64,000 nt of DNA from Mesorhizobium sp. M2A.F.Ca.ET.046.03.2.1 (GTDB lineage: Bacteria > Pseudomonadota > Alphaproteobacteria > Rhizobiales > Rhizobiaceae): assembly GCF_003952425.1 (NCBI RefSeq), contig NZ_CP034449.1:6622001-6686000 (forward strand), written 5' to 3'. A model generated the notes under the pieces. It searched no databases, was not told the DNA's origin, and saw nothing but the letters and a program-made list of their open reading frames with translations. This document shows positions 15,000 through 59,780 of this stretch, in pieces. How positions within the stretch are numbered: position 1 is the stretch's first letter; every line of letters starts with the position of its first letter. The position numbers and the translations under genes are program-made.

Positions 15000-15057
15000 G
15001 GTAGTCCTTTCAGTTGATCTCTACACCGCCGTAATGCCAGCGGCTCCACCTTGAGAA

Positions 15058-15120
15058 GCGAGTAGGGAATAGTGAGTAGCGAATAGAGTCCTACTCGCTA
15101 ATGACTACTCGCTATTCGCC
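15058..15120. repeat. Heptamer-built inverted repeat between rpsM and rpsK
   Basis: The left arm (15058-15086) is made of GCGAGTAG, GGAATAG, TGAGTAG and CGAATAG in a row. The right arm (15090-15120) is the reverse complement of similar units (GGCGAATAG, CGAGTAG, and AGCGAGTAGG after a short break). The arms can fold into a hairpin of about 25 pairs in the rpsM-rpsK mRNA. The element begins three bases after the rpsM stop codon. A second member of the family is at 58798-58899. Confidence 0.85.
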
Positions 15121-15123
15121 CAA

Positions 15124-15492
15124 TTACTTCTTCTTGCCGGCGATCGCCTTGGCCGGGCCCTTGCGGGTGCGCGCATTGGTGTGCGTGCGCTGGCCGCGGA
15201 CCGGCAGCGAGCGGCGGTGACGCAGGCCGCGGTAGCAGCCGAGGTCCATGAGCCGCTTGATGTTCATCGAGACTTCGCGGCGCAGGTCGCCTTCGACCTG
15301 GTAGTCGCGGTCGATCGTCTCGCGAATCTGCAGCACTTCCGCGTCGGTCAGCTGGTTGACGCGGCGGTCCGCCGGGATGCCGACCTTGTCGACGATCTCC
15401 TGGGCAAACTTCTTGCCGATGCCGTGAATGTACTGAAGCGCAATGACGACGCGCTTGTTGGTCGGAATGTTGACGCCGGCTATACGAGCCAT
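15124..15492 (-). CDS. rpsM: 30S ribosomal protein S13
   Basis: A 122-residue S13 from ATG 15492 ([20 protein letters not shown]). An ATG six codons upstream is the only in-frame alternative. The helix-turn-helix region [18 protein letters not shown] and the basic tail with [17 protein letters not shown] are conserved. S13 contacts the P-site tRNA and the 50S subunit through bridge B1. It is the first gene of the alpha block after adk, with a 229-base spacer. Confidence 0.97.
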
Positions 15493-15670
15493 TTTCTTCT
15501 CTTTCTCCATGTAGGCCGGACGAGCCGGCGTTCAAGTTACCCCGCGTCCGGTGGAGGCCGGCCCTTGCGGGAGTTTCCTGGTTCAAAGCGGACGCCTTGC
15601 CCGCAAGGGCAAGCAAAGTCCATGCCTGATAGGAAGACGGGCCGCCATACCCCAACGACCCACTTCAGTC

Positions 15671-57951: not shown

Positions 57952-58814
57952 ATGAACGACGATAAAAGCACCAAGCCCGGCACGCGCAAGGACACCCACT
58001 ACGCCAAGCTGAGGCGCGCGCATCGAGACCAGAAGGCGGGCGGTGCGCCGGCATTCCGGCCGCGCCAGCCGGTGCCGCCGGGGAAGGGCCTGGCGACGGG
58101 CTGGTGCGGCTTTACGGCCTGCACACGGTGCGGGCCGCCCTCGACAATCCGCGCCGCAAGATCAAAAAGATGCTGGTGACCCGCAACGCGGCGGAGCGGC
58201 TTTCGATCGGCGAGCTTGCCGCCCTACCCTTCAAGGCCGAGTTGGTCGAGCCGAAGGAGATCGACAGGATCACCGGGTCGGACGCCGTGCATCAGGGCGT
58301 GCTGATCGAGGCCGAGCCGCTGAAGCCCAAGCGCCTCGACGCGCTCGGCGACACAAGGCTGGTGCTTGTGCTCGACCAGGTGACGGACCCGCACAATGTC
58401 GGCGCGATCCTGCGCTCCGCCGTCGCTTTCGGCGCCGGCGCGCTGATCACGACTGCACGCCACAGCCCGCAGGAATCCGGCGTTCTGGCGAAATCCGCGT
58501 CCGGGGCCCTGGAGCATATCGACCAGATCGAGGTGAAGAACCTCGCCGATGCGCTGGGGCAGCTGCACGAGGCCGGTTTCCAGACGATCGGACTTGATTC
58601 CGAAGGACCGGCCGAGCTCGAAAAGACATTCGACGGCCAAAAGATCGCGTTGGTGCTGGGCGCGGAAGGCAAGGGCCTGCGGCAAAAAACCCGCGAGACG
58701 GTGGCCGCGCTCGCCCGCCTCGACATGCCGGGCGCCATCCATTCGCTCAACGTGTCGAATGCGGCGGCGGTGAGCCTTTATGCGGCAAGGAAATTCCTAG
58801 CGAATAGCGAATAG
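57952..58814 (+). CDS. rlmB: 23S rRNA 2'-O-methyltransferase RlmB (TrmH family), frame interrupted near codon 43
   Basis: From ATG 57952 the frame gives the usual basic N-terminus (RKDTHYAKLRRAHRDQK), then loses phase at the G run 58080-58083. One more G there gives PPGEGPGDGLVRLYGLHTVR and joins the rest. The SPOUT domain is complete: NVGAILRSAVAFGAGALI, VLGAEGKGLRQ and IHSLNVSNAAAVSLYAA. RlmB methylates G2251 of 23S rRNA. As written, a shorter product could only start at 58104. A sequencing error or recent mutation is likely. The last codons and the stop are supplied by the heptamer repeat. Confidence 0.88.
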
Positions 58815-58899
58815 CGAATAGCGAATAGCGAATAGGCGGAACACCGCGAGGTGCCGGCCTGCAATCCCTACTTGCTACTCCCTATTCGCTACTGGCTAG
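58798..58899. repeat. Heptamer-built inverted repeat between the convergent rlmB and glxR genes
   Basis: The left arm is five perfect CGAATAG units (58801-58835) after TAG. The right arm is the complement-type series CTACTTG, CTACTCC, CTATTCG, CTACTGG, CTAG (58868-58899). The rlmB TAG stop (58812-58814) and the glxR TAG stop (58896-58898) both lie within the arms. About 32 bases of unrelated sequence form the loop. It is a relative of the element at 15058. Confidence 0.85.
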
Positions 58900-59780
58900 C
58901 CCACTTCGTGGGCCGCCATCCGCTCCAGCGCTCTCACCAGCGCCGAGTGGTCCTCCTTGGCGCCGCCATTGGCGGCGCAGGAATTGAAGAGCTGCTGCGT
59001 GGTCGAGGTGTTAGGTAGCGAGACGCCAAGCGCTTTCGCGCCTTCCAGCGCGAGGTTGAGGTCCTTCTGGTGCAACTCGATGCGGAAGCCAGGCGCGAAG
59101 GTGCGCTTGATCATGCGCTCGCCATGCACTTCGAGGATGCGCGAGGCGGCGAGCCCGCCCATCAGCGCCTGCCTGACTTTTGCAGGGTCGGCGCCGGCCT
59201 TCGAGGCAAAGACGAGGGCTTCGCCGACGGCTTCGATGGTGAGCGCCACCACGATCTGGTTGGCCACCTTGGTGGTCTGGCCAACGCCGTTCGGGCCGAC
59301 GAGGGTGATGTTCTTGCCCATCTTCTCGAAGACCGGCCTGGCGCGTTCGAAGGCCTTTTCCCCGCCGCCGACCATGATGGTGAGCGAGGCGGCCTTGGCG
59401 CCGACCTCGCCGCCCGACACCGGCGCGTCGAGATAATCGCAGCCGAGATCGTTGATCTTCCTGGCGAATTCCTTGGTGGCGATGGGCGAGATCGAGCTCA
59501 TGTCGATGACGAGCTTGCCCTTAGACAAGCCAGCGGCGACGCCGCTCTCGCCGAAGAGAACATCTGCGACCTGCGGGGTGTCTGGCACCATGGTGATGAT
59601 GATGTCGGCGACCTTGGCCACCGCATTGTGGCCGGTGACTGACTTCAGCCCCTTGGCGACGAGATCAGCCGGCGGCTTGGAGCGGTGGTCGCTGGCAACG
59701 ACCGTATGGCCGGCGTCGAGGAGATGCCCCGCTATCGGCGCGCCCATGATGCCGAGGCCGATGAAGCCGATGGTTTCCAT
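58896..59780 (-). CDS. glxR: 2-hydroxy-3-oxopropionate (tartronate semialdehyde) reductase
   Basis: A 294-residue beta-hydroxyacid dehydrogenase. The NAD(P) motif is GFIGLGIMGAPIAGHLLDAG (residues 5-24), the substrate loop is DAPVSGGEVGA, and the catalytic Lys is in GVGQTTKVANQIVV. It reduces tartronate semialdehyde to glycerate, the last step after Gcl and Hyi. It is the third gene of a gcl-hyi-glxR unit; the gap to hyi is 100 bases. Confidence 0.9.
   Translation of the reverse strand: METIGFIGLGIMGAPIAGHLLDAGHTVVASDHRSKPPADLVAKGLKSVTGHNAVAKVADIIITMVPDTPQVADVLFGESGVAAGLSKGKLVIDMSSISPIATKEFARKINDLGCDYLDAPVSGGEVGAKAASLTIMVGGGEKAFERARPVFEKMGKNITLVGPNGVGQTTKVANQIVVALTIEAVGEALVFASKAGADPAKVRQALMGGLAASRILEVHGERMIKRTFAPGFRIELHQKDLNLALEGAKALGVSLPNTSTTQQLFNSCAANGGAKEDHSALVRALERMAAHEVG

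Follow-up and report, generated by a model that had tools for sequence, protein, structure and literature searches.

The spacer between the convergent genes rlmB and glxR of this Mesorhizobium genome consists of one long hairpin of repeated heptamers, and the arms of this hairpin encode the stop codons of both genes. Comparison with related loci suggests that the hairpin is probably a gene-end copy, without an ORF, of a family of small IVS-like elements (IVS, intervening sequence), for which we propose a route through RNase III. As a repeat, the hairpin is ordinary; it is surprising as a link to IVS/S23 elements. The work connects hairpins of heptamers at gene ends with the S23 elements found in split ribosomal RNAs, shows S23 proteins in genomic surroundings other than rRNA, and opens their possible part in spread to testing.

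Structure of the rlmB–glxR hairpin

Within the window (the whole stretch of 64,000 nucleotides that was analyzed), the left arm of the hairpin (58797–58835, + strand) starts with CTAG (58797–58800, with TAG at 58798–58800) and continues with five exact CGAATAG units (58801–58835). A middle part of 29 nt on the loop side (58836–58864, + strand) separates it from the right arm (58865–58899, + strand). The preliminary description of the repeat was accurate for the five units on the left and is refined here for the right, where the inverted heptamers are degenerate rather than a run of exact units. Tandem repeat analysis of the left arm gave a period of 7, 5.4 copies, and a 100% match, and the arms (58797–58831 and 58865–58899) are 80% complementary. 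The predicted RNA fold of positions 58790–58905 has an energy of −48.5 kcal/mol (z = −6.35) for the + strand and −58.5 kcal/mol (z = −6.71) for the − strand, and for neither strand was any of 200 shuffled sequences as good.

A 17-nt double unit, with ≤3 mismatches allowed, occurs 10 times in the window versus 0.08 times expected; six of these matches lie at the rlmB–glxR hairpin and four at a second hairpin of the family in the rpsM–rpsK spacer (15056–15121, + strand). The latter is located 2 nt from the stop of rpsM (S13; 15124–15510, − strand). A search of the window and six related loci against Rfam at the gathering score returned tRNAs only, with no match for the rlmB–glxR hairpin.

Stop codons encoded by the arms

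The rlmB ORF (58104–58814, + strand) ends in KFLANSE, and its final four residues (ANSE) and stop TAG (58812–58814) are encoded by the units of the left arm. The stop TAG of glxR (2-hydroxy-3-oxopropionate reductase; 58896–59780, − strand) is found at 58896–58898, inside the right arm. The RlmB product scored 158.6 bits against TIGR00186, just below the cut-off of 160.15, and contains both SpoU Pfam domains; the glxR product scored above the cut-off of TIGR01505. The earlier proposal that a single element gives the stops of both genes is therefore borne out by the ORF ends at 58814 and 58896–58898, and here the C-terminal residues and the stops of housekeeping genes are encoded by repeats. Unit-coded stops were found at rlmB, glxR, lpxB, a permease gene, and others.

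The claim that the units provide a stop in every reading frame holds here and describes a common property of rhizobial arms, since inward stops in all three frames were present in 267 of 328 rhizobial half-spacers (200 composition shuffles gave a mean of 73 and a largest value of 91), compared with six for outward stops. Such all-frame stops follow from having one stop per 7- or 8-nt unit. When the letters within a unit were permuted (worked by hand), a stop was retained about half the time, so that the stops in rhizobial words are weak evidence for selection. Because all-frame stops are true of the rhizobial words and not of all words, they account for gene ends tolerating the element and not for where it came from.

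Related hairpins at gene 3′ ends

Searching the 7.37-Mb genome with TAGCGAATAGCGAATAG (≤2 mismatches) gave 45 matches, and the more general word RGNSART, repeated three times, gave 48; the controls (reversed for the former) gave none. An octamer word had no matches in this genome. Including the rlmB–glxR copy, 15 two-armed hairpins of 7-nt units (RGNSART) were counted, 14 of which are firmly placed at a gene 3′ end, with the called end at −17 to +28 nt (for L032, the 3′ end was derived from translation and Pfam, and L040 was counted with its left arm included). The fifteenth hairpin (L044) is placed less firmly, by a 74-aa ORF that matched no Pfam family. This catalogue of further genomic copies, which the preliminary description had called for, thus yielded copies that often contain the stop, and at 4499679 and 5531194, as at rlmB–glxR, the copy extends over the stops of the two convergent genes beside it. 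Two identical one-armed unit stretches 10.4 kb apart (L035 and L036; genome positions 4381635 and 4392068) suggest a local duplication.

A similar placement was found in other alphaproteobacterial records. From 80 listed loci, 29 were removed as non-alphaproteobacterial or unclear by title, leaving 42 copies that were merged into 33 distinct sites; matches near locus ends were skipped. Among these sites, 25 of 38 gene 3′ ends, as given by heuristic ORFs, fell within −25 to +5 nt of the hairpin, versus 3 of 27 5′ ends (Fisher p = 1e-5), and a 3′ end was present within −25 to +18 at 27 of the 33. The stop was overlapped at 16 of 33 sites, a count that is partly automatic for units with stops in every frame. 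Two candidates for long-loop hairpins (L113 and L114) were rejected, as each consists of two separate hairpins around one gene.

Distribution and change of unit words

A 20-nt pattern (≤1 mismatch) was found in 123 of 146 genomes of the genus and, across the order, in 42 of 397 genomes and 18 of 141 genera, with no matches for the reversed control in either set. A named scan gave at least 117 loci, of which 80 were listed; Mesorhizobium accounts for 24 of the 80, and other listed loci come from Nitratireductor, Aminobacter, Shinella, Devosia, Rhizobium, and more. Eight of the 29 listed loci that are outside the alphaproteobacteria or unclear by title derive from one Gemmatimonadales MAG, in which one and the same 24-nt word recurs many times (L209, L211, L218, L229, L235, L243, L266, and L271).

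In relatives, such hairpins persist at these sites with different unit words. In the rpsM–rpsK spacer, the lpxB–gltA spacer, and the spacer of a dehydrogenase subunit pair, a unit hairpin was present in 30 of 30 loci read per site, these being the best of 141, 143, and 61 genomes with a match, respectively. In other genera, 25 of 27 rpsM–rpsK spacers contain a hairpin (judged by eye). Unit words include TAGNGAR, GGTGAAT, octamers such as GGGGAGTA, and GGCAGTA/C, and for the rpsM–rpsK spacer, a script assigned a word type to 23 of 28 family-level loci. The idea of one unit type per genome was unsupported (six site pairs; p = 0.054 to 0.85) in a test whose loci, as best matches to the genome's own sequence, are biased toward its own word.

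On average, arms pair better with their own partner than with another. Cognate pairing gave mean energies of −53.9, −43.3, and −47.1 kcal/mol at the three sites versus −37.7, −37.2, and −38.6 kcal/mol with swapped partners, and the own-partner advantage was reached in 0 of 5000 permutations at each site, with relatedness being ignored in the permutation. The own partner ranked first in only 6 of 46, 6 of 30, and 3 of 30 cases, which counts against the IVS-like reading. The sense strand showed no bias in fold energy, being more stable in 9 of 18 co-directional copies; at rpsM–rpsK it is the less stable strand (more stable in 10 of 30; p = 0.017). The lack of a sense-strand bias argues against selection on RNA alone.

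Long forms enclosing an S23 gene

Facing unit arrays 400 to 470 nt apart were found at six alphaproteobacterial loci, and each pair encloses an S23 ORF. Two of these long forms are from Mesorhizobium (L115 and L217), two from another family (L118 and L119), one from a Hyphomicrobiales MAG (L269), and one from a Xanthobacteraceae MAG (L316). The four long-form proteins that were searched matched PF05635 at 104 to 131 bits and scored above the cut-off of TIGR02436. A local HMM detected eight S23 ORFs in 411 records, and all eight are located between unit arrays, one pair of which consists of octamers. Six of the eight are those of the long forms above; the other two are on a Gemmatimonadales contig (L243), one flanked by TAGCGAA arrays in the opposite orientation and the other by octamer arrays. 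Long forms are few, at seven loci, and most of them were found through the same repeat word, which weighs against the IVS-like reading.

Long and short forms occur at one and the same site. At the CP_ATPgrasp site, this genome has a 137-nt spacer without an ORF (L040), and the spacers of G017 and Mesorhizobium sp. M1B are 466 and 476 nt long and contain S23 (L115 and L217); the unit word of L040 differs from that of the S23 forms, which counts against the IVS-like reading. Between nuoC and nuoD, the S23 form was seen in four loci, and M. xinjiangense has a spacer of 127 nt in which just one arm contains units. The local HMM found no S23 ORF in the rlmB–glxR copy or elsewhere in the window, nor was an S23 gene present in the fetched stretches of this genome that were scanned, another point against the IVS-like reading.

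S23 genes on plasmids

S23 genes were also selected by protein similarity alone and scored without regard to repeats. From 35 matches, 14 plasmid loci were fetched, and removal of L412, a duplicate of L411, left 13, mostly from cyanobacteria. Period-7/8 arrays on both flanks were present at 10 of these 13 loci versus 1 of 400 control ORFs, and an inverted-repeat score of ≥15 was reached by 10 of 13 versus 38 of 400, the controls being open frames rather than proven genes. Three plasmid loci (L416, L418, and L420) have no paired inverted arrays and count against the association. Unit words vary by organism (GGGTGTA, GGGAGTA, GGGAACA, AGGTGAC, and others), and GGGAACA contains no stop codon. S23 genes lie between inverted period-7/8 arrays in several phyla, and in one case, an Azospirillum plasmid locus (L421), the setting is a large-subunit (23S) rRNA gene. 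On cyanobacterial plasmids, two S23 genes lie inside cas operons, L415 flanked by cas6 and cas4 and L422 by cas10 and a Cmr3 gene, and a third (L413) separates the genes for the two subunits of ribonucleotide reductase.

Spacer alleles in relatives

Among 66 rlmB–glxR alleles, 43 have a unit hairpin, three a plain palindrome, and 20 neither; since L048–L077 are best matches and L078–L097 were chosen for a split match, these counts are no guide to allele frequency. One locus (L116) that gave no junction was left out. In all 43 unit-hairpin alleles, the first in-frame rlmB stop is in the array or at its edge (determined by reading). In the 20 element-free alleles, rlmB mostly ends close to the same position, a few codons away at most (with FLKR(G) or FLRRG before the stop in 16 of 20), and 18 of 20 have a longer glxR tail. 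BLAST detected no similarity between the other 46 spacers and the 20 element-free ones, which implies that whole spacers differ; among the 20, similarity was detected in 154 of 190 pairs. The suggested comparison with element-free alleles thus gave no sign of native stops having been replaced by insertion. Orthologues without the element do end rlmB near the same codon, which was one half of what would speak against a stop-supplying insertion; yet other copies near stops exist.

Several of these spacers have features of their own. Most of the element-free spacers L126–L145 share another conserved palindrome, AACGGGTTCC...GGAACCCGTT, which had no Rfam match in the three loci searched (L126, L138, and L145). 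Four heptamer-free spacers (L086, L088, L089, and L095) are 470 to 650 nt long and contain extra DNA, and two element-free spacers (L084 and L097) contain additional inserts that resemble hairpins and differ in sequence.

A tree of the flanks demands 15 changes of the element label, 11 of which are forced by well-supported branches. One element-free genome (G004) groups near the genome studied here, with weak support, and its identity to the latter drops toward the junction on the rlmB side (from 97–98% to 88–93%) and not on the glxR side. This pattern is most simply read as an exchange of spacer alleles; recombination in the flanks may also have distorted the flank tree.

Proposed mechanism and alternative explanations

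The IVS-like reading was put above the others on account of the long-form loci, which enclose S23 genes; as 23S rRNA IVSs carry such genes too, the family looks like one of mobile elements. The full form would be a palindrome of approximately 470 nt, in which an array of 7- or 8-nt units (purine-rich strand first) is followed by the S23 gene and an inverted array, and the short form a hairpin of 60 to 200 nt, from which the S23 gene was lost or in which it may never have been present. In the transcript, the stem is expected to be double-stranded, and by analogy with the IVSs of 23S rRNA, RNase III would cut it in the transcripts from both sides, thereby trimming or separating the flanking messages. 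Such a cut would leave the coding parts unharmed, so that gene ends would tolerate the element. With rhizobial units carrying stops at a period that is not divisible by three, reading frames may run into an arm, and native stops would become dispensable. Unit words would change through slippage and rare type switches, and spacer alleles would be swapped between strains.

A wider idea, which we put forward more tentatively and consider possible rather than probable, is that the S23 four-helix-bundle genes, which have long been puzzling, are the cargo of widespread selfish RNA-hairpin elements with self-renewing arms of 7- or 8-nt words, purine strand first. The IVSs of rRNA would then be only the rRNA-borne branch, most copies would reside at the ends of protein genes, often as a bare hairpin, the stem in the transcript would act as a cut-out device, and the word would change freely. 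The "stop cassette" would be the bare form.

Alternatively, the hairpin could be a REP-like host element, kept as the 3′ boundary of messages through exonuclease protection, by limiting read-through from one convergent gene into the other, or by slowing ribosomes at the stop. The placement at gene 3′ ends and the persistence of hairpins in the same spacers at the three sites and in other genera both fit this explanation, as does a structure of −33 to −40 kcal/mol that is left when the ribosome footprint is blocked; ribosome stalling is reported for REPs within 15 nt of a stop in the excerpted text of PMC12306157. We nevertheless regard it as unlikely, because fold energies show no sense-strand bias and because the forms with an S23 gene and the location in rRNA agree better with a selfish origin. 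The REP-like and IVS-like views can both hold, for different copies.

The preliminary description proposed a mobile stop cassette, that is, an element favored by selection for inserting at gene ends and closing any reading frame. Several parts of this idea stand, namely the stops at rlmB, glxR, and the other genes named above, the all-frame inward stops, the copies at gene 3′ ends, and the resemblance to a mobile-element family. The idea as a whole seems improbable, since stops do not define the family (the GGGAACA units beside S23 genes elsewhere carry none), all-frame stops follow from the unit itself, no insertion with a matching empty site was seen, and a search for the Y1/RAYT transposase (Y1_Tnp) gave no match in this genome while being positive in 5 of 14 control genomes.

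That the element terminates transcription, as had also been suggested, is unproved. A bidirectional terminator between convergent genes that is repetitive by chance would account for convergent pairs such as rlmB–glxR, olsB, and lpxB–gltA and for the palindromes in element-free rlmB–glxR alleles. No intrinsic terminator (GC-rich hairpin plus U tract) overlaps the element, with the single site in 58600–59100 being elsewhere, and among the 32 alphaproteobacterial sites with both neighbors called, 20 are co-directional, including rpsM–rpsK and the dehydrogenase subunit pair, nine convergent, and three divergent, which makes this explanation very improbable. A neutral DNA-level palindrome arising from replication slippage and template switching would fit left arms that reach 14 units in relatives, the mixing of unit types inside 9 of 18 genomes, and the absence of strand bias. 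It is likewise very improbable, given that the arrays are associated with gene 3′ ends and, in several phyla, with S23 genes.

Comparison with known repeat and IVS elements

The family can be likened, by description only, to RIMEs, which are rhizobial intergenic palindromes, and to STRRs, which are cyanobacterial heptanucleotide tandem repeats. In the open-licence PMC literature, no link between heptamer hairpins at gene ends and the S23 elements in split rRNAs was found, and using the repeat letters as a query gave chance matches only.

In Beggiatoaceae, forward TAACTGA heptamers give stops in all frames, and some overlap gene ends; unlike the present family, they are direct repeats and mostly precede start codons (excerpts of PMC4679880). 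The heptameric intergenic repeats of Xanthomonas and Nostoc are G-rich direct repeats able to form quadruplexes, and according to the excerpted text (PMC4692102), they share with the family the 7-nt units, a position near or overlapping stops, the occurrence at the same gene pairs, and a varying repeat length. The family differs from them in having two inverted arrays, the Xanthomonas and Nostoc repeats being direct in the same excerpts. Some repeats of this type may be related, as several cyanobacterial S23 loci have inverted heptamer arrays. REP/BIME elements with RAYT are likewise dispersed palindromes at gene 3′ ends, but, as far as the excerpts of PMC3733652 and PMC12306157 go, they are not arrays of 7-nt units. 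By inspection, the length and build of the present hairpin differ from those of a 20- to 40-bp REP palindrome tagged by GTAG/CGTC at one end, and the RAYT gene associated with the GTAG/RAYT type was not found in the genome.

The closest counterparts are the IVSs of 23S rRNA. The Coxiella IVS, described as selfish, combines tandem heptamers and an S23 ORF with a terminal stem of 28 bp, and RNase III excises it (excerpts of PMC4990558). In the same excerpts, IVSs with S23 ORFs resemble the family in their stem-forming terminal inverted repeats and in the heptamers beside an ORF for an S23 four-helix bundle, and forms with a damaged ORF occur. In contrast to these IVSs, the copies described here are found at 3′ ends between protein genes, supply stops, and usually lack an ORF. 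The rlmB–glxR hairpin lies between two protein genes in a window with no rRNA match and carries no S23/PF05635 ORF, and membership in the IVSs proper is not claimed for it. Its terminal inverted repeats do give a stable predicted stem, S23 is present in relatives that share its arms, and Azospirillum L421 shows the IVS layout inside large-subunit rRNA.
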